Assembly (NCBI GenBank): GCA_015075175.1
Contig: JABTUV010000005.1
Location: 124,001-188,000 of the forward strand
Reading direction: 5' to 3'
Source: a bacterium
Lineage (GTDB): Bacteria; Hinthialibacterota; Hinthialibacteria; H5-UNCL2
DNA length: 64,000 bases
In this document: in pieces, positions 3,358 through 56,729 of the stretch
Layout of the letters: each line of letters starts with the position of its first letter
How positions within the stretch are numbered: the first letter of the stretch is position 1
The notes under the pieces: model-generated
Seen by the model: only the letters and a program-made list of their open reading frames with translations
Databases searched by the model: none
What the model was told of the DNA's origin: nothing
Program-made: the position numbers and the translations under genes

Positions 3358-5814
3358 ATGAGGCGACATTATTGGGGAAGCGCGGCGGTAGCGCTGGCGG
3401 CGGCGCTGCTCATGCCGGCGGCGGGGCGGCGGAAGACGCGCGCTGGAGTACGCGAGAGCTCTGCAGAAAGCCGGCAAGAGCGAGGTACAAGTGAAGGTGG
3501 ATGCATCCGTCGGCGGGCCAGAAGCGTTCAGGCTGACTGACAACGCGATCCTGGCGGAGGGCCGGCGGGGGCGCTGTACGGCGCGCAGGAATACCTGCGC
3601 CCCCCGGCGCAACGCTCGGCGGCGACTTCGCCCGACTTCGAGTTGCGCGGGAGCGTGCTTTTTCTCATGAAGGAGGGCAGCTACGACTACCGCCTCCTGC
3701 CCAGCGAATTCCCCTGGTTCTACGACCGGGAATTGCTCACCAAGTACTTCGATTATCTCTTTGAGCATCGCTTCAACGCGGTGTTTCTATGGACGGGCAA
3801 CTTGTTCGCCAACATCGTGGAGTTGCCGGAGTATCCCGACGCCTCGGACCTGACGAAAGAACAGCTGTTGCGCAACCAGGAGCAGCCCGCTGGTTCACGA
3901 GCGAGTGCGCCAAGCGCAATATTTCGGTGCTGCTGCATTTTTACAACATCCATCTGCCGGTGGCGTTCCAGAAGACGCGGGGCATCCCGATTCACTACAG
4001 CGCGCCGGACGAGTTCGCGGCCAAGTACATGCGCTACGCGCTGGGGCGGTTCATCAACGAGTTCGAGTCGGTGGGACTCTATGTCTGCCCGGGGGAGGTG
4101 TTGCGGGCGCAGTACACGCCGGAGTGGATTCGCGACGTGATCTTCAAGGCCGCCAACGAGAGCGGCAAGAAGCCGTTGATCGTGATCCGGGACTGGGGGC
4201 TGGACGCGCAGGGTTTCAAGGAGCGGGCCAGCCCGCACTACGACAACGCCTACACCGAACTCAAGCACAACATCGAGATGATCGTCCTGCCGGTTCCCGA
4301 CCAGCGGCACGCCATCTGAAAGGGGTGGCCAAGCGGCACATCGTGAACGTGCACGAGGTTTCCGACGTGAAACCGTTCCGCTGGGGCAGCCCGGCGTTCA
4401 TTCACGAGATGGTCGGCAACTGGAAGGCCATCGGGCTGGACGGGCGGAAGTGTACGGCATGATCTCGTGGCGCTGGCCCAACAGTCTGGACAAGTTAACG
4501 CCCGAGCAGAAGACCTTCTGGCCGGCGGGGCCGCGGCTCTTGACGTTCGAGCGGGACGCCATCTGGCTGGCGGCCATCGGGCGCTACCTGTGGGACGTGG
4601 ATCGTGATCCAGCCGCCGAGCGGCGCTACTGGATCGGCGTCTTGGGCGAGAAGTTCGGCAGCCCGGATGCGGGCGAACTGCTCCTGGACTGGTACCAGAC
4701 CACCGGCCCCATCCTGCCAGGCCTTCAGAACCTGACCAGCGTGGCCAACATGAACTGGCATCCCACGGTGATCGGCAAGGAGCAATACGTGGACGACATC
4801 TTGAACGCGCGCAGCTGGGGCGAGCATCAGGGGACGGGCAATCATCCCTCCATGCCGGTGGATGCGCTCTTTTTCGAGCGGTACAAGAGAGAATACCACC
4901 AGCCGGAGCTGACTGATCGGATGACCATGCCGGTAGCGGAGATGGCGTATCGGATGGCCAAGGGGCAGTCGCTGGCGGGCCGCATGACGCCCGACAAGGT
5001 GATGGCGCTCTTGGTGAAAATGGCGGAAGAGTCGGTCGAGACGGCGCGGAAGGCCAGGGCGGCGGCGACGAAGAACCGCGCCGAGGCGGGCCGCTTCATC
5101 AGCGACAGCGAGGCGCTGGTGCTGGTCGCGCGCGCCTGGCAGTGCAAGGTCATGGCGGCCTTGCACAAGGCGCTGTGGCAGGAGACCGGCAGCGAGGAGA
5201 ACAAGAGGGTTTTCCTGCAATACTTGGAGCAGTCGATCCCTGTCTATGAACAACTGGTCGCCCTGACGGACCGAACCTATGTCAATCCCACCGACATGGT
5301 GATGCGCCTGAACTGGAACCCGTATGGTCTCTCGCATTTCCGGCGCGACCTGGAGATGCAGAAGCAGAAAGTCGCGGTAGCCGAGATTCAGAAGAAGCCC
5401 GGTTTCGTCTGGTTGGACACGGAGGAGATGCAGGGGGCAGGCTGGAAGGTGGGAGCGAACTATGCCGGTTATTACGGCAGGGGATTTCGGGCTTCTGACA
5501 GTACCCCGCGGCACGCGGGCGTTTTGACCGGTTCCGTGCAGGTAAAGGAAGCCGGCACGTACACGGTGTGGACGTATGGGTTGGCGGAGCGGCGGGTGGA
5601 TCGGAGTTTTGCGGTGGAAGTGGGAGGCAAGAAGCTGCCGGCGACGCACGCCAGCCTGCCGGAGCGGGGGGCGCGCTTTGTCTGGGAGAAGGCGGGGACG
5701 GTGCAGTTGCCGGCGGGGGCGACGCGCATCGTGATCACCGACGCGGGGGACGGCTACGAGTGCCCGGACGTGGTCGTCCTGGCCAGGGACGCGGAGTGGA
5801 CGCCGGCGCCGTAG
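3358..5814 (+). pseudogene. Secreted alpha-glucuronidase-like glycosidase, multiply frameshifted
   Basis: Starts with ATG and a clear signal peptide (MRRHYWGSAAVALAAALL). The frame then breaks at about 3430, 3590, 3880, 4310 and 4450. Read together, the pieces give a protein of about 815 residues: an N-terminal domain like that of GH67 enzymes, a TIM-barrel (YDRELLTKYFDYLFEHR, then LLHFYNIHLPVAF, then IVIRDWGLDAQG), a helical region, and a C-terminal beta domain of about 120 residues from 5400 that looks like a carbohydrate-binding module (GWKVGANYAGYYG, GTYTVWTYG). The last segment, 4450-5814, is an intact frame of 454 codons. Together with the neighbouring esterase it suggests a glycan-degradation locus. 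GH family assignment is tentative. Confidence 0.55.
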
Positions 5815-5857: not shown

Positions 5858-5940
5858 GCGCCGTGGCCTCTCGATACGGCCCCGAAGGGGGGTTGTGATG
5901 GTCATGGGGGTCTGGCGGCGGGGCCTACTCGAGGACACGG
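5858..5940 (+). repeat. Palindromic dispersed element E1 (left edge of the array)
   Basis: Contains the family hallmarks CTCTCGATACGGCC (about 5868) and GGCCTACTCGAGGACACGG (about 5922). The second half is the seed of the tandem array that follows directly. Confidence 0.75.
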
Positions 5941-6560
5941 CACAGGTTTTCTGCATCAAGGGGGCCTACTCGAGGAGACGGCACAGGTTTTCTGCATCAA
6001 GGGGGCCTACTCGAGGAGACGGCACAGGTTTTCTGCATCGAGGGGCCTGCTCGAGGAGACGGCACAGGTTTTCTGCATCGAGGGGGCCTACTCGAGGAGA
6101 CGGCACAGGTTTTCTGCATCAAGGGGGCCTACTCGAGGAGACGGCACAGGTTTTCTGCATCAAGGGGCCTACCGAGGAGACGGCACAGGTTTTCTGCATC
6201 GGCAGCCCTCTACGAGGAGACGGCACAGGTTTTCTGCATCAAGGGGCCCTACTCGAGGAGACGGCACAGGTTTTCTGCATCGGGGGCCTGCTCGAGGAGG
6301 CGGCACAGGTTTTCTGCATCAAGGGGGCCCACCGGAGGAGGCGGCACAGGTTTTCTGCATCAAGGGGCCTGCCGAGGAGGCGCGCACAGGCTTTCTGCAT
6401 CAGGCCTACCGAGGAGGCGGCACAGGTTTTCTGCATCAAGGGGCCTGCTCGAGGAGGCGGCACAGGTTTTCTGCATCAAGGGGGCCTGCTCGAGGAGGCG
6501 GCACAGGTTTTCTGCATCAAGGGGGCCTACTCGAGGGCACGGCTTACTTTTTTCCATGCA
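5921..6560 (+). repeat. Tandem array of 15 units, period 40-41 bp
   Basis: The core CACAGGTTTTCTGCATC occurs 15 times, at 5941, 5982, 6023, 6063, 6104, 6145, 6184, 6224, 6265, 6304, 6345, 6385, 6421, 6461 and 6502, followed by a degenerate sixteenth unit. Between cores lies a 23-24 bp linker of the form AAGGGGGCCTACTCGAGGA. Units at the left carry GAGGAGACGG and units at the right GAGGAGGCGG, a clean polarity. Units 7, 11 and 12 are the most degraded. The linkers are themselves copies of the dispersed element's CTACTCGAGGA arm, so this is an internal expansion of that element. The period is not a multiple of three and no ribosome binding site is present, so it is not coding. Confidence 0.9.
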
Positions 6561-6596
6561 GGGGACTGGAGATTCCGCAAGAAAGCAGAATCCGAG

Positions 6597-6751
6597 TTCT
6601 CGAGTAGCGCCGCAGGCACGTATATCGAGAGAACGGCATGGGAGCGGGCGGGGTGGCGTCAGGTCGCCGCGACCCCTTGATACGGCCTTTGGCCTTCTCG
6701 GGGGACACCTCGAGGACTCGGTTTTTCTTTCTCTCGCAACTCTCTCAGGGG
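6597..6751 (+). repeat. Paired dispersed elements E2 (one inverted, one direct)
   Basis: The left half, 6597-6640, is an inverted copy (CTCGAGTAGCGCC...ATATCGAGAGAACGGC). The right half, 6674-6751, is a direct copy (TTGATACGGCC...CCTCGAGGACTCGG) followed by a T-rich tail (GTTTTTCTTTCTCTCGCAAC). The remaining intergenic DNA up to 6878 shows nothing else recognisable. Confidence 0.75.
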
Positions 6752-6878: not shown

Positions 6879-8891
6879 ATGGGTTCACGGCAGTTCGGGC
6901 GCGCTGTCGCGTTTTGCGGGATTATGCTGCTCTCTCCGGCGATGGCGCAGCTGGGACATCGTCCCGGCATCTCCACGTCGACTTTGGAGGTCAAGGACCT
7001 CACCGGCCTCTCCATCAAGGTCCCGCGCGTGCGCATCCCGCATACCACCGACCGGAACCTGGCGGGGGGCAGCGCGTATTTGCAGTGGCGCGATCCCTGG
7101 CTGGGCTACCAGTTGGGCAAGGACCTGACGCAGCGGGAGTTCCAGCTGCGGGACGGGGTTTTCGGGCGGGCCGTCTCGAACTTCAGCGGCAAGCTGCCGG
7201 ACGGGCGCACGCCCACGATCGTGGCCAACGACCAGGTGAGCTGCGGGGGGTGTCATAACATCCCGTACCGGGACGCGGGCGGGGGCGTCAATTTCGCCAA
7301 GTCGGGGGGGTTGGGACGGAACACGCCGCACTTTTTCGGCGGTGGGCTGGTGGAGATGATCGGCTGGCAGGTGCGGCTGCAGTTGCTGGCGCAGATGGAT
7401 GCCAACCGGGATGGGTGGGTCTCCAAGGCGGAGATGAACGGCGCCACGCTGGCGGTCGCCCCCGCACCCGGCGCGCCGCCCATCGTGTACGGCAGGAACG
7501 CCGACGAGGACGGCGACGGCCGGCCCGACCTCAACGCCATCTTCAGCGTCTGGTACGTGGACGGCGAAGGCAAGCTCTTGCGCGCCGCACGGAGTCTGTC
7601 CGACGCCAGCGTGGCCGGCTTCAACTTCTTTACCACCATTTTCGGCTGGGGCGAGCCGGGCGGGGGCCTCAATCCCACCAACCGCGCCTTTTACTGGAAC
7701 CCGATCCATGCCCACACCGGCATGCAGGCCAATGATCCCACGTCGCTGGCCGATCCGGAGAACGACGGACTGACGGGCGTGTCCAACGCCGGCGCGCAGC
7801 AGGTCTGGACCCACAAGCCGATGGACTACGGGTTGGAGACCAACTCGGTCGGCATCTCGATCGACGATCCCGACCGGGACGGCGCCATCTGCGAGATCAC
7901 GGAAGGCGACTTGGACATGGCGGAGTGGTACATGCTGAACGCGCCGCGTCCCGGGCTGGGCCGGCAGACCGCCGAGACGGCGCGCGGCCAGGCGCGGCTC
8001 GGCGACTTCGGCTGCCTCTCCTGCCACGTACCCAATTGGCGGATTCAGCCGCGCAACCACGCTCCCGCCGACTATACCCAGGCCTACCCCGGCGACCGCC
8101 GCTTCTTCGACTTCGACGTGGTCTGGAACGCCTCGACCGAGCGTATGGAGGGCAGGCTCGTCCGGCTTCATCACTACGAGAACGGCAACGAGATTCCCAA
8201 CTACGGGGGCTTTCTCGTGACGGGCATCTACTCGGACTTCAAGCATCACGACATGGGGCCGGAGTTCCAGCAGGTGCTGTATGACGGGAGCGTGCAGAAG
8301 TTATGGCGGACGGCGCCGTTGTGGGGGGTGGGATCGGGACTGCCGTGGGGCCATGCGGGGCAGGACATGACGCTGGACGGCGTCATCCGCCGCCACGGCG
8401 GCGAGGCAGAGGCGAGCCGCGAGGCCTATGTCGGCGCCAGCGAGGCGGATCGGCGGGCGGTGGTCGCGTACCTGGAATCGCTGCAGCTTTACATGACCGA
8501 CCAGGTTCCCGCCGACATCGACGGCGACGGCGAGATCAGCGAACACTTCATGGTCGCGGGGCGGGACACGGGAGTCGAGCGGCTCAACGCGGAGTGGCTG
8601 TTCGCCACGCCGCTCTTGATCGAGGGTCCGGCGGTCGGAGGGGACGGCAGCGTGGTGCGTTCCTCGGCCGGGACCAACATCGCCGAGGCCTACGGGCAGC
8701 ACTTGCCGTATCTGCGGGACCGCGACGAAGACGGCTTCCCCGACGTGGCCGACGAGGCGCCGGAGAGTCGCGGCTTCTTGGACGGAGTGCGCAATGCCCC
8801 CGCCTTCTACTATGCCGACTTGAACGGGGACGGGGTAGTCGACGCGCTGGACCTTCTGGTCTTCCGGGAGTACTACCTGACGACGCCGTAG
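6879..8891 (+). CDS. Secreted di-heme cytochrome c peroxidase-like (DHOR-type) protein with calcium-binding tail
   Basis: Start ATG 6879 is chosen over upstream codons because AGGAG lies 6 bp before it and a signal peptide follows (MGSRQFGRAVAFCGIMLL, cleavage after AMA). Two heme-binding motifs are visible: CGGCH at about 122-126 and CLSCH at about 379-383. The overall layout matches the di-heme oxidoreductase / putative peroxidase family. Extra Asp-rich calcium-binding loops occur: MDANRDGWVSKAE, DIDGDGEISE, a thrombospondin-3-like DRDEDGFPD and a C-terminal dockerin-like ADLNGDGVVDALDLL. The likely role is periplasmic or extracellular electron transfer or peroxide/oxidative chemistry. The calcium-binding additions suggest surface attachment, which is inference. 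Its reading frame is intact, unlike both neighbours. Confidence 0.8.
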   Translation: MGSRQFGRAVAFCGIMLLSPAMAQLGHRPGISTSTLEVKDLTGLSIKVPRVRIPHTTDRNLAGGSAYLQWRDPWLGYQLGKDLTQREFQLRDGVFGRAVSNFSGKLPDGRTPTIVANDQVSCGGCHNIPYRDAGGGVNFAKSGGLGRNTPHFFGGGLVEMIGWQVRLQLLAQMDANRDGWVSKAEMNGATLAVAPAPGAPPIVYGRNADEDGDGRPDLNAIFSVWYVDGEGKLLRAARSLSDASVAGFNFFTTIFGWGEPGGGLNPTNRAFYWNPIHAHTGMQANDPTSLADPENDGLTGVSNAGAQQVWTHKPMDYGLETNSVGISIDDPDRDGAICEITEGDLDMAEWYMLNAPRPGLGRQTAETARGQARLGDFGCLSCHVPNWRIQPRNHAPADYTQAYPGDRRFFDFDVVWNASTERMEGRLVRLHHYENGNEIPNYGGFLVTGIYSDFKHHDMGPEFQQVLYDGSVQKLWRTAPLWGVGSGLPWGHAGQDMTLDGVIRRHGGEAEASREAYVGASEADRRAVVAYLESLQLYMTDQVPADIDGDGEISEHFMVAGRDTGVERLNAEWLFATPLLIEGPAVGGDGSVVRSSAGTNIAEAYGQHLPYLRDRDEDGFPDVADEAPESRGFLDGVRNAPAFYYADLNGDGVVDALDLLVFREYYLTTP

Positions 8892-17107: not shown

Positions 17108-17490
17108 GCGCTCCTCACCCGGCGCTGCGCCGACCTCTCCCCAGGGAGAGAGGTGAAATCCTCCCTGGGGAGAGGGCCAGTGAGGGGCGGCGCAAAGGCG
17201 GGTTCCTCACCCGCTCGGCTGCGCTCGCTCTGCCGAGCGACCTCTCCCCTCAGGGAGGTGAAATCCCTCCCTTGGGGAGAGGCCAGTTGAGGGGGGCGCG
17301 GCGTAAGGCGGGTTTCCCCACCCGGCGCTTCGCGCGCCGACCTCTCCCTCAGGGAGAGTGAAATCCCTCCCTTGGGGAGAGGGTTAGGAGTGAGGGGGGC
17401 GTGGCGTAAAGGCGGGTTTCCCCCTCACCCGCTCGGCTGCGCTTCGCTCCGCCGAGCGACCTCTCCCTCAAGGAGAGGTGGAGAATCCCG
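17108..17490 (+). repeat. Four tandem copies of a ~100-125 bp GC-rich hairpin repeat
   Basis: Each unit reads CTCACCCG..., a hairpin of the form GCTCGGCTGCGC/CGCCGAGC, CGACCTCTCCCTCAGGGAGAGG, GAAATCCCTCCCTTGGGGAGAGG, GTGAGGGGGGCG and GGCGTAAAGGCGGGTTTC. The last unit is duplicated at 52534-52672, and a shorter relative is at 57668-57753. Confidence 0.8.
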
Positions 17491-18748
17491 CAGCCGCGAG
17501 ACTTTGCGGCTGCACGCCCTTGGTCACCCGTCGTAACACTTCGTCAGGCGGCTTGACAGTGCCGTACCGCCCGTGCAGAATGAAGCAAAATCGAGGATGA
17601 TCGGCAACGTGACGGATATGCAATTGATCCTTCCCATCGCCATTGCCTAGCCCCCTTTTGCGGAAGGGGGCGCAACCCGACTTTCTCCTATTTCAATCCG
17701 ACCCGAACAAAGCCGTGAGGACATGATGAGCAAACCGTACTTCCCCGTGACTTCGCCCCAGCTGGACTTCCCCGCAATGGAGGAGGAGGTGCTGGCGTAC
17801 TGGCGGGAGCATGACACCTTCAGGGAGTCGATCCGGCGGCGGCAGGCGCAGGGGCGCGTGACTACGTCTTCTACGACGGGCCGCCGTTTGCGACCGGGCT
17901 GCCGCACTATGGCCACATTCTCACATCCTACATCAAGGACACCATCCCGCGGCTGTTCACCATGCTGGGGCGGACGGTGGATCGGCGCTTCGGCTGGGAC
18001 TGCCACGGCCTGCCGATTGAGAACGAAATCGAGAAGGAGCTGGAGATTTCCGGCAAGCGGGAGATCGAGGCCTACGGGGTGGACCGGTTCAACGCGCGCT
18101 GCGCGGAGGCGGTCATGCGCTACACCCGGGAATGGGAGCGCATCATCACGCGGCTGGGGCGTTGGGTGGATTTCGAGCGGGATTATAAGACCATGGACCT
18201 CTCCTACATGGAGAGCATTCTGCGGGTGTTCCATGATCTGTGGCAGAAGGGGCTGATCTACGAGGGGAGCGGGTGGTGGCCTATTGTTATCGCTGCCAGA
18301 CGCCGCTCTCGAACTTCGAGGCGCGGCTGGACGATTCGTTTCGTCCCCGCCAGGACCCGTCGGTCACACCTAAGATTCAAAGTGAGAGACACCGAGCGGC
18401 CGACTTATTTTCTCGCCTGGACGACGACGCCGTGGACGCTGCCCTCCAACGTGGCGCTGGCGGTGGGGGCGGGATCGCCTACGAGCGGCTGCGCCTGGAC
18501 GGGGAGGATTACTACATCGCGGCGGCGCGGCACGAGGCCTACGCCAAGCTCTTGAAGGGCGCCGAGCGGGTGGAGACGGTTCCCGGCGAGGCGCTGGCGG
18601 GGATGAGCTACGAGCCGCTGTTTCCCTATTTCCAGGACACGCCCAACGGCTTTCAGGTGGTGGTGGCGGATTTCGTGTCGACCGAGGACGGACGGGCATC
18701 GTGCACATCGCGCCGGCTTTCGGCGAGGACGACTGGCTGGGCGCGGCG
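17371..18748 (+). repeat. Long direct duplication, copy 1 (ileS promoter and 5' end)
   Basis: Matches 52551-53934 almost base for base, offset 35180-35186. Differences are mostly single-base indels in G/C runs (17851, 18257, 18370, 18470, 18688) plus a few substitutions. Four of the five coding indels are missing G residues in this copy. Confidence 0.92.
17553..17581 (+). promoter_or_regulatory. Candidate sigma-70 promoter of ileS
   Basis: TTGACA, 17-bp spacer, CAGAAT. It lies 145 bp upstream of ileS. A CCCCCTTTTGCGGAAGGGGG hairpin (about 17651-17670) sits between it and the gene and could be a leader hairpin. No T-box features are seen. Confidence 0.5.
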
Positions 18749-33486: not shown

Positions 33487-33564
33487 TGGCCGCATCGAGG
33501 CCGTCCTCTCGATACGCCGGAGTACCGGCTACTCGAGGACTCGGTTTTTGTTTTTCTCGCAACC
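33487..33564 (+). repeat. Dispersed element E6, terminator-like
   Basis: CCGTCCTCTCGATACGCCGG, AGTA, CCGGCTACTCGAGGACTCGG form an imperfect hairpin, followed by TTTTTGTTTTTC. Nearly identical over 70 bp to 50041-50115. Position just after a stop codon and the T tract suggest it terminates the SDR transcript. Confidence 0.75.
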
Positions 33565-36160: not shown

Positions 36161-36465
36161 AGCCGTGTCCTCGAGTAGGCCCCGCCGGAGGTCCAGCGTC
36201 GGAGTTGAACTCCCGCCTCGGGGCCGTATCGAGAGGCACGGCGGCGACGGCGCGACAGGGCCGCGCCCATGCCGTTCTCTCGATACGCGCCTTCGGCGCT
36301 ACTCGAGAACTCGGGTTTTCTTTTTCAGGCGCTACTCGAGAACTCGGGTTTTCTTTATCGGGCGCTACTCGAGGACTGGGGTTTTCCTTTTCGGGCGCTA
36401 CTCGAGGACTGGGGTTTTCCTTTTTATGCTGCTGGGAGGAGCTATCGAGAGGCACGGCGGCCTGC
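36161..36465. repeat. Composite dispersed element E7
   Basis: Inverted copy at 36165-36246 (GTGTCCTCGAGTAGGCCCC...GTATCGAGAGGCACGG). Direct copy from 36271 (GCCGTTCTCTCGATACGCGC). The 33-bp array follows, then a final inverted half (GCTATCGAGAGGCACGGC) at 36442-36460. Confidence 0.75.
36298..36430 (+). repeat. Four exact-period 33-bp tandem units
   Basis: Units start at 36298, 36331, 36364 and 36397: CGCTACTCGAGAACTCGGGT (then GGACTGGGG variants) plus TTTTC tails. The same CTACTCGAGGA arm is expanded here as in the 5.9-6.6 kb array, but with its own T-rich tail. The period is divisible by three and in frame with the following gene (LLENSGFLFQA-type 11-mers). Confidence 0.85.
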
Positions 36466-50040: not shown

Positions 50041-50155
50041 GGCCGCATCTAGGCCGTCCTCTCGATACGCCGGAGTACCGGCTACTCGAGGACTCGGTTT
50101 TTGTTTTTCCGGTTACTGCCGGACTCGGTTTTTGTTTTTCCGGCAACTCTCTCAG
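50041..50155 (+). repeat. Dispersed element E8 with duplicated tail
   Basis: Near-identical to E6 (CCGTCCTCTCGATACGCCGG...CTACTCGAGGACTCGG). Its tail GACTCGGTTTTTGTTTTTCC occurs twice, at 50091 and 50122, period 31. This is an incipient array. The rest of 49888-50308 holds only the REP below. Confidence 0.8.
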
Positions 50156-52538: not shown

Positions 52539-52672
52539 AATCCCCTCTCCCTTGGGGAGAGGGTTAGGGTGAGGGGGGCGTGGCGTAAAGGCGGGTTTCC
52601 CCCTCACCCGCTCGGCTGCGCTTCGCTCCGCCGAGCGACCTCTCCCTCAAGGAGAGGTGGAGAATCCCGCAG
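52534..52672 (+). repeat. Copy of the GC-rich hairpin repeat of 17.1-17.5 kb
   Basis: GAAATCCCCTCTCCCTTGGGG, GTGAGGGGGGCGTGG, CACCCGCTCGGCTGCGC and CCGAGCGACCTCTCCC. It begins over the last codon of the hydrolase gene and forms the left edge of the long duplication. Confidence 0.8.
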
Positions 52673-52732
52673 CCGCGAGACTTTGCGGCTGCACGCTCCT
52701 TGGTCACCCGTCGTAACACTTCGTCAGGCGGC

Positions 52733-52761
52733 TTGACAGTGCCGTACCGCCCGTGCAGAAT
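52733..52761 (+). promoter_or_regulatory. Duplicate of the ileS promoter
   Basis: TTGACA, 17 bp, CAGAAT, identical to 17553-17581. Confidence 0.5.
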
Positions 52762-52905
52762 GAAGCAAAATCGAGGATGATCGGCAACGTGACGGATATG
52801 CAATTGATCCTTCCCATCGCCATTGCCTAGCCCCCTTTTGCGGAAGGGGGCGCAACCCGACTTTCTCCTATTTCAATCCGACCCGAACAAAGCCGTGAGG
52901 ACATG

Positions 52906-53934
52906 ATGAGCAAACCGTACTTCCCCGTGACTTCGCCCCAGCTGGACTTCCCCGCAATGGAGGAGGAGGTGCTGGCGTACTGGCGGGAGCATGACACCTT
53001 CAGGGAGTCGATCCGGCGGCGGCAGGCGCAGGGGGCGCGTGACTACGTCTTCTACGACGGGCCGCCGTTTGCGACCGGGCTGCCGCACTATGGCCACATT
53101 CTCACATCCTACATCAAGGACACCATCCCGCGGCTGTTCACCATGCTGGGGCGGACGGTGGATCGGCGCTTCGGCTGGGACTGCCACGGCCTGCCGATTG
53201 AGAACGAAATCGAGAAGGAGCTGGAGATTTCCGGCAAGCGGGAGATCGAGGCCTACGGGGTGGACCGGTTCAACGCGCGCTGCGCGGAGGCGGTCATGCG
53301 CTACACCCGGGAATGGGAGCGCATCATCACGCGGCTGGGGCGTTGGGTGGATTTCGAGCGGGATTATAAGACCATGGACCTCTCCTACATGGAGAGCATT
53401 CTGCGGGTGTTCCATGATCTGTGGCAGAAGGGGCTGATCTAGGAGGGGGAGCGGGTGGTGGCCTATTGTTATCGCTGCCAGACGCCGCTCTCGAACTTCG
53501 AGGCGCGGCTGGACGATTCGTTTCGTCCCCGCCAGGACCCGTCGGTCACACTAAGATTCAAAGTGAGAGACACCGAGCGGCCGACTTATTTTCTCGCCTG
53601 GACGACGACGCCGTGGACGCTGCCCTCCAACGTGGCGCTGGCGGTGGGGGGCGGGATCGCCTACGAGCGGCTGCGCCTGGACGGGGAGGATTACTACATC
53701 GCGGCGGCGCGGCACGAGGCCTACGCCAAGCTCTTGAAGGGCGCCGAGCGGGTGGAGACGGTTCCCGGCGAGGCGCTGGCGGGGATGAGCTACGAGCCGC
53801 TGTTTCCCTATTTCCAGGACACGCCCAACGGCTTTCAGGTGGTGGTGGCGGATTTCGTGTCGACCGAGGACGGGACGGGCATCGTGCACATCGCGCCGGC
53901 TTTCGGCGAGGACGACTTCAAGCTGGGCGCGGCG
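52906..53934 (+). pseudogene. Truncated second copy of ileS (N-terminal third)
   Basis: Encodes MSKPYFPV... through the HIGH-type motif and into the editing domain, ending at [12 protein letters not shown]. It is more correct than copy 1: indels at the equivalents of 17851, 18257, 18370, 18470 and 18688 are absent. But it has one nonsense change, TAC to TAG at 53440, after KGLI. It cannot make a working synthetase. If real, it is a promoter-driven fragment that would transcribe the ABC transporter genes downstream; otherwise it marks an assembly join. Confidence 0.85.
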
Positions 53935-56509: not shown

Positions 56510-56624
56510 CGCCGGCATCTTGCCGGCCCACGTGGGTGGCGTCTCGCCTCCACGCTTCGGGTAGGCGGCGGGAGGCGAAGCGTGTAGGCAGGATGCCTAC
56601 ACGCAAGCCGGCAAGATGCCGGCG
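56510..56624. repeat. Inverted repeat between the permease genes
   Basis: Perfect 17-bp arms CGCCGGCATCTTGCCGG (56510-56526) and CCGGCAAGATGCCGGCG (56608-56624) enclose a smaller hairpin GTGTAGGCA/TGCCTACAC (56582-56602). The right arm runs into the 23-bp array. Confidence 0.8.
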
Positions 56625-56729
56625 CTACGGGGAAGAGGATGCCGGCGCTACGGGGAAGAGGATGGCGGCGGTGCGGGGAAGAGGATGCCGGCGCTACGGG
56701 GAGGAGGATGGCGGCGGTACGGGGATGAG
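56615..56729 (+). repeat. Tandem 23-bp array ahead of the second permease
   Basis: Units at 56615, 56638, 56661, 56684 and 56707, GATGCCGGCGCTACGGGGAA-type with a GAGGATGGCGGCGGT variant. Every unit contains a purine-rich GGGGAAGAGG next to ATG. The period of 23 shifts the reading frame by two with each unit. Confidence 0.85.

Follow-up and report, generated by a model that had tools for sequence, protein, structure and literature searches.

An intergenic tandem array of single hairpin arms beside a dispersed REP-like element

Organization of the array locus

The tandem array lies between two co-oriented genes in a 64-kb window, a term that designates here the whole stretch of DNA analysed. 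It is bordered by elements of a dispersed hairpin family that comprises four forms, named A to D. The features of the locus, and two related ones found further along the window, are listed below, with the basis of their delimitation in brackets where it applies.

4459–5814, + strand: upstream gene, matched weakly and in part only by an alpha-galacturonidase model
5861–5940, + strand: founder hairpin, long-loop C type, made of 5' arm CCGTGGCCTCTCGATACGGCCCC, loop and 3' arm GGGGCCTACTCGAGGACACGG (sequence; type recovered at other loci)
5920–6543, + strand: tandem array of 15.5 units of ~41 bp, each unit being core GGCACAGGTTTTCTGCATC + junction AAGGGGGC + arm CTACTCGAGGAGAC (TRF, unit list)
5925–5940, + strand: first arm CTACTCGAGGACACGG, common to the founder hairpin and the array (unit list)
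6527–6560, + strand: last arm (CTACTCGAGGGCACGG) followed by tail CTTACTTTTTTCC, which is like the tail of unexpanded C-type elements and unlike the array core
6592–6638, − strand: short D-type hairpin, inverted so that its tail faces that of the founder (sequence)
~6668–6721 (boundaries approximate), + strand: third element, a variant, facing the D-type element head to head (sequence)
~6879–8891, + strand: downstream gene coding for a di-haem oxidoreductase-like protein with a dockerin/EF-hand end
36276–36425, + strand: second array of like kind, in which four arms with a period of 33 bp come after a D-type hairpin (TRF and sequence)
50058–50148, + strand: A-type hairpin with a second, degenerate arm and T-rich tail 31 bp on (sequence)

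TRF assigns 15.5 copies to the array with a period of 41 (89% matches, score 950). It holds 15 cores, the first at position 5939. The fifteen-unit array of about 40–41 bp reported in the initial annotation is thus real, though its core-to-core spacings range from 36 to 41. The linker of each unit had been described as an arm of a dispersed element that flanks the array on both sides and inside which the array was born. This description is borne out: the linker is the 3' arm of the founder, CCTACTCGAGGACACGG, which doubles as the first arm of the array; the founder precedes the array while the D-type and the third elements follow it; and birth inside a dispersed element holds at many other loci too.

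The arms of units 1–8 carry the variant GAGAC and those of units 9–14 the variant GAGGC. This split has no exception, and a perfect 8/6 ordering would arise by chance with a probability of 2/3003 (simple arithmetic). The blocks, noted on first inspection as GAGACGG and GAGGCGG, are therefore exact. The polar growth that had been proposed from them, with the split as its one basis, is not established: the degenerate units are found in the middle of the array and neighbouring units are no more alike than shuffled ones (p 0.84, from an alignment with poorly placed gaps). The outermost arms retain ACACGG and GCACGG. Changes are concentrated in the 14-nt junction segment (26 of 37, p 6e-6), and the 19-nt T-rich core is almost invariant across the 15 units. 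Such clustering fits imprecise re-priming; selection on the core could equally generate a similar distribution.

The units are arranged head to tail and have the length, within ~10–100 bp, that characterizes minisatellites or VNTRs. The initial annotation saw in the array no resemblance to a CRISPR or to a coding minisatellite, and both negatives are supported. The sequences that separate the arms duplicate one another, the units repeating throughout where a CRISPR would have unique spacers. Open frames exist in the forward direction, but the reading frame changes between units because their lengths range from 36 to 41. An Rfam scan of the 64-kb window gave no match and no tRNA genes were found in it. 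The window also carries, at 56615–56729, five copies of a 23-bp repeat, GATGCCGGCGCTACGGGGAAGAG.

The dispersed hairpin family

The arm CTACTCGAGGACTCGG, with at most one mismatch, has 308 matches in the 4.98-Mb genome and none in the reversed control. Among 60 relatives, none of them closer to the source genome than the same class, three have a match, one each and each with one mismatch; the sole match in a relative of the same class lies in an apparent coding frame. A stricter hairpin pattern gives 99 matches in the source genome and none in 13 other genomes of the class.

The forms A to D are told apart by their inner stem and loop, and all have the collars TCGATACG and CTACTCGAG around the inner stem. 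The A and D types are ~40 bp long while the B and C types reach ~75 bp with long loops, the yardstick for GTAG REPs being 20–40 bp with a short loop. The elements are palindromic stem-loops, as in the GTAG REP superfamily. The CTAC of the family, which is GTAG on the opposite strand, is invariant beside the inner stem; GTA lies within an internal loop, the G is paired, and an outer stem extends beyond. Inner stems covary in two hand-picked sets of short-loop elements, whose rows are distinct hairpins chosen by hand with one mismatched 24-mer excluded: 100% of cells are paired and covariation amounts to 0.63 and 0.39 vs 0.17 and 0.13 after shuffling. The family is both high-copy and extragenic, since 67 of 69 full elements from two sampled contig stretches are intergenic according to a home-made gene model that covers 74–79% of the DNA. 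Nearby elements alternate in orientation, as in BIMEs; this is the case of the founder, the inverted D-type element and the third element, and pairs in opposite orientation are found also on contig C8 and at several loci of contig C45. Some A-type elements are nested in longer terminal inverted repeats (CTAGTGCCGTTTCA..TGAGAAACGGCACTAG) with a MITE-like organization (L031, ~1420–1570).

The collars TCGATACG..CTACTCG with covarying stems occur also in records titled Planctomycetaceae, Chloroflexi, Gemmatimonadetes, Gulosibacter and Zimmermannella (L070–L074), with 5 to 38 collar matches per genome vs none in the reversed control. Arm-only arrays show no excess over the reversed control in these genomes of other phyla that bear a like hairpin. 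The family is termed here REP-like and is treated as a candidate member of the GTAG REPs, since its tag forms part of a longer stem and a RAYT gene flanked by the element was not found. A REPtron has a RAYT gene flanked by its cognate element, an arrangement that neither of the two Y1 transposase genes of this genome displays. Because the genome is 84% complete, a RAYT gene may be missing from the assembly.

Recurrence of single-arm arrays

The window array is not unique: it is one of many arrays grown from one hairpin arm. In 1.60 Mb sampled, 37 of the 360 places with the 3' arm (GTAG side) have it in tandem, compared to 3 of the 323 with the 5' arm (Fisher p 3e-8), counts in which some tandem places lie inside larger repeated blocks, and so are not all independent, and in which about one third of single-arm matches at that tolerance are due to chance as estimated by a simple shuffle. 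The periods of tandem arms are mostly 33–35 or 39–41 bp. Genome-wide, two exact arms separated by 18–36 bases give 47 matches, distributed over more than 20 separate loci, vs 1 in the reversed control. The largest array found is the following.

Contig C8, L148, 5377–6621: ~31 (31.4) units of 40 bp, with a higher-order period of 119 bp

Its order is that of the window locus, namely a C-type hairpin, the units, an ancestral-looking tail and an inverted short hairpin, and the core GGTTTTCTGC is common to both arrays. The core of the window array is, as noted initially, absent from the rest of the window, but it is present elsewhere in the genome, its GGTTTTCTGCNTCAAGG being found in the contig C8 array and related cores at further loci. 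A CATCAAG core is common to the 40–41 bp units of C-type elements at many loci. Note that contig C45 (e.g., L055 and L061) has many other intergenic tandem repeats, such as GGTCGAAATGACAG at 17–22 bp and AGATTA hexamers.

Origin and growth of the arrays

Array units keep a record of their locus. In elements with a short loop, 2.25 nt at the end of the first unit match the local inner-stem 3' strand vs 0.96 nt on permutation of the loci (2.25 nt being reached in 0 of 5000 permutations), while the tail of the first unit agrees with the final tail of its own locus at 6.7 of 12 positions (4.9 when permuted). As unit ends match their own inner stem and unit tails their own final tail, the arrays arise locally, and the two tests together define a duplicated piece running from near the hairpin apex into the tail. 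The unit end of the window array matches its founder over 5 nt, GGGGC. For the long-loop C elements, to which the founder belongs, the junction test yields p 0.2 and is powerless because their inner stem is always GGGGC. Given the common CATCAAG core, the first duplication of the window array was probably not made at the array's own site. The same core suggests that an early two-arm C-type form was copied around before growth occurred at some sites.

The reading that we favour, with moderate confidence, is that one REP/BIME-like hairpin seeded the array, a non-coding minisatellite, through hairpin-provoked re-priming, and that slippage and recombination then extended it; the anatomy and recurrence of the array are direct observations, and we infer the replication step. 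Folding of the single strand would halt DNA synthesis near the hairpin apex. The nascent end would then re-prime on a short homology beyond the tail, duplicating one segment composed of inner-stem 3' strand, arm and tail. Once two arms are present, ordinary slippage and unequal recombination could enlarge the array. For the C type, the first duplication would have occurred in an ancestral element, followed by copying around and by later growth at single sites, including that of the window. A host function would not be required, and the array is most likely a by-product of the hairpin.

A different route, which we regard as unlikely, is that a REP-associated transposase (RAYT, HUH/Y1) nicks the single-stranded hairpin near its GTAG side and that repeated nick-primed synthesis lays down units of arm plus tail. 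It would accommodate the restriction of amplification to the GTAG-side arm and is in line with E. coli TnpA-REP, which requires GTAG and cleaves at a CT adjacent to the REP (PMC8266576). The two Y1 transposase genes of the genome (L039, L040) have the REP-associated family as their best NCBIfam match, but both proteins are under the family cut-off (70 and 74 vs 80 bits) and their genes lack flanking hairpin elements. Direct repeats unlike the hairpin family surround the start of the second gene (L040, 1833–2372) and are possibly that transposase's own sites. The orientation of A-type elements with GC skew also suits a single-strand mechanism. They run along the G-rich strand in a ratio of 46:7 (26:5 without the window's contig), as do those at 33507–33544 and 50058–50097 in the window. 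Because the bias persists in the convergent and divergent gaps of the window's contig (13 to 2), gene direction does not explain it, and A-type orientation seems tied to replication rather than transcription. Single-strand insertion has been discussed for IS608 and REPs (PMC3116915; PMC8266576), and the A-type skew suits such a process; the bias, however, concerns insertion and bears in no direct way on array growth. As a general proposition, it is quite doubtful that tandem arrays of half-hairpins are the work of a single-strand transposase that targets REP-like hairpins and primes synthesis time after time from nicks on their GTAG side. If true, transposase-built half-hairpin arrays would constitute an undescribed route from a dispersed bacterial hairpin to a satellite.

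Explanations by function or by artefact have less to commend them than hairpin-provoked re-priming. The array could be maintained as a regularly spaced DNA-binding platform with the core or the CTCGAG palindrome as candidate site, a proposal that draws on a core kept near-invariant in the 15 units while the junction varies, and common to the contig C8 array. We find it improbable, as cores differ between arrays at other loci, no neighbouring regulator was identified, and recent homogenisation with an error-prone junction would yield the same pattern. A role in RNA, as hairpin array, terminator or 3'-end protector of the upstream gene, is very improbable. The array does lie downstream of a co-oriented gene and founder-type short hairpins with a T-run fold well (z −2.7), but the units and the array fold no better than shuffles (z +0.16 for one unit, −0.86 for two units and −1.7 for the whole locus, the latter from 20 shuffles only), which gives the RNA-hairpin array envisaged initially no support. 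The terminator role was rejected on gene context, where its signature is not clear: the elements are not significantly enriched in convergent gaps or biased towards one gene direction, nor are they depleted from divergent gaps.

Least probable of all is that the array results from assembly or sequencing. The assembly is incomplete, in 49 contigs, and has signs of single-base indel error. A 1.3-kb stretch is present twice (17390–18691 and 52569–53873), in copies identical but for 1-nt shifts. It includes the beginning of an ileS-like class I tRNA synthetase gene, which in the longer copy is split between several frames; this suggests either indel errors or decay of a duplicate. The assembly probably contains single-base indel errors; differences in G-run length between units are therefore not trustworthy and single-base differences in unit length may be sequencing error. 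The flanks of the array are nevertheless unique, and creation of the array by the assembler from a single unit is unlikely because substitutions between units are arranged in blocks and a like anatomy, with locus-specific units, recurs at many loci. The artefact doubt is confined to the exact unit number and to G-run lengths.

Comparison with known repeat systems

Tandem clusters of whole REPs are known and the route of their formation is not settled. Here, a single genome contains many loci with unit numbers ranging from 1 to 31; their junctions bear the mark of the locus and one arm is strongly favoured. From this genome, in which dispersed hairpins visibly seed minisatellites, one can read how a bacterial minisatellite is born and grows, and hairpin-provoked slippage and transposase-driven copying make differing, testable predictions. 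A limited search of the open literature yielded no description of arrays of one hairpin arm only, and a search with the element's own letters returned nothing on such an element.

Mycobacterial MIRU-VNTR loci are non-coding tandem repeats of 40–100 bp found between genes and derived from a dispersed unit. The window array is likewise non-coding, intergenic and derived from a dispersed unit, with the difference that its founder hairpin persists beside it and that unit ends follow the founder's stem. CRISPR arrays share with it a short repeat of similar length and regular spacing; they differ by their unique spacers, whereas here the inter-arm stretches duplicate one another and hairpin elements border the locus.

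The closest parallels are found in REPs and BIMEs tagged with GTAG, whose clusters are reiterated in tandem together with flanking DNA (PMC3733652). Like them, the hairpins described here are short, numerous and intergenic; they have GTAG next to a stem that varies between copies, and they form pairs in opposite orientation. The family departs from them in that GTAG is inside a longer imperfect stem (outer CTCGA/TCGAG pairs), in its many long loops, and in the tandem unit, which is one arm plus tail instead of a whole REP or dimer. In Pseudomonas fluorescens SBW25, REPINs are also dispersed REP-derived units of which some are in ordered tandem including flanking sequence, but their clusters repeat whole REPs or REPINs with spacings of ~70–180 bp (PMC3116915), compared to half-hairpins at 33–41 bp in a genome where an element-flanked RAYT gene was not found. 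Tandem clusters being already known in REP/BIME systems, the single-arm arrays are a variant of REP/BIME biology.
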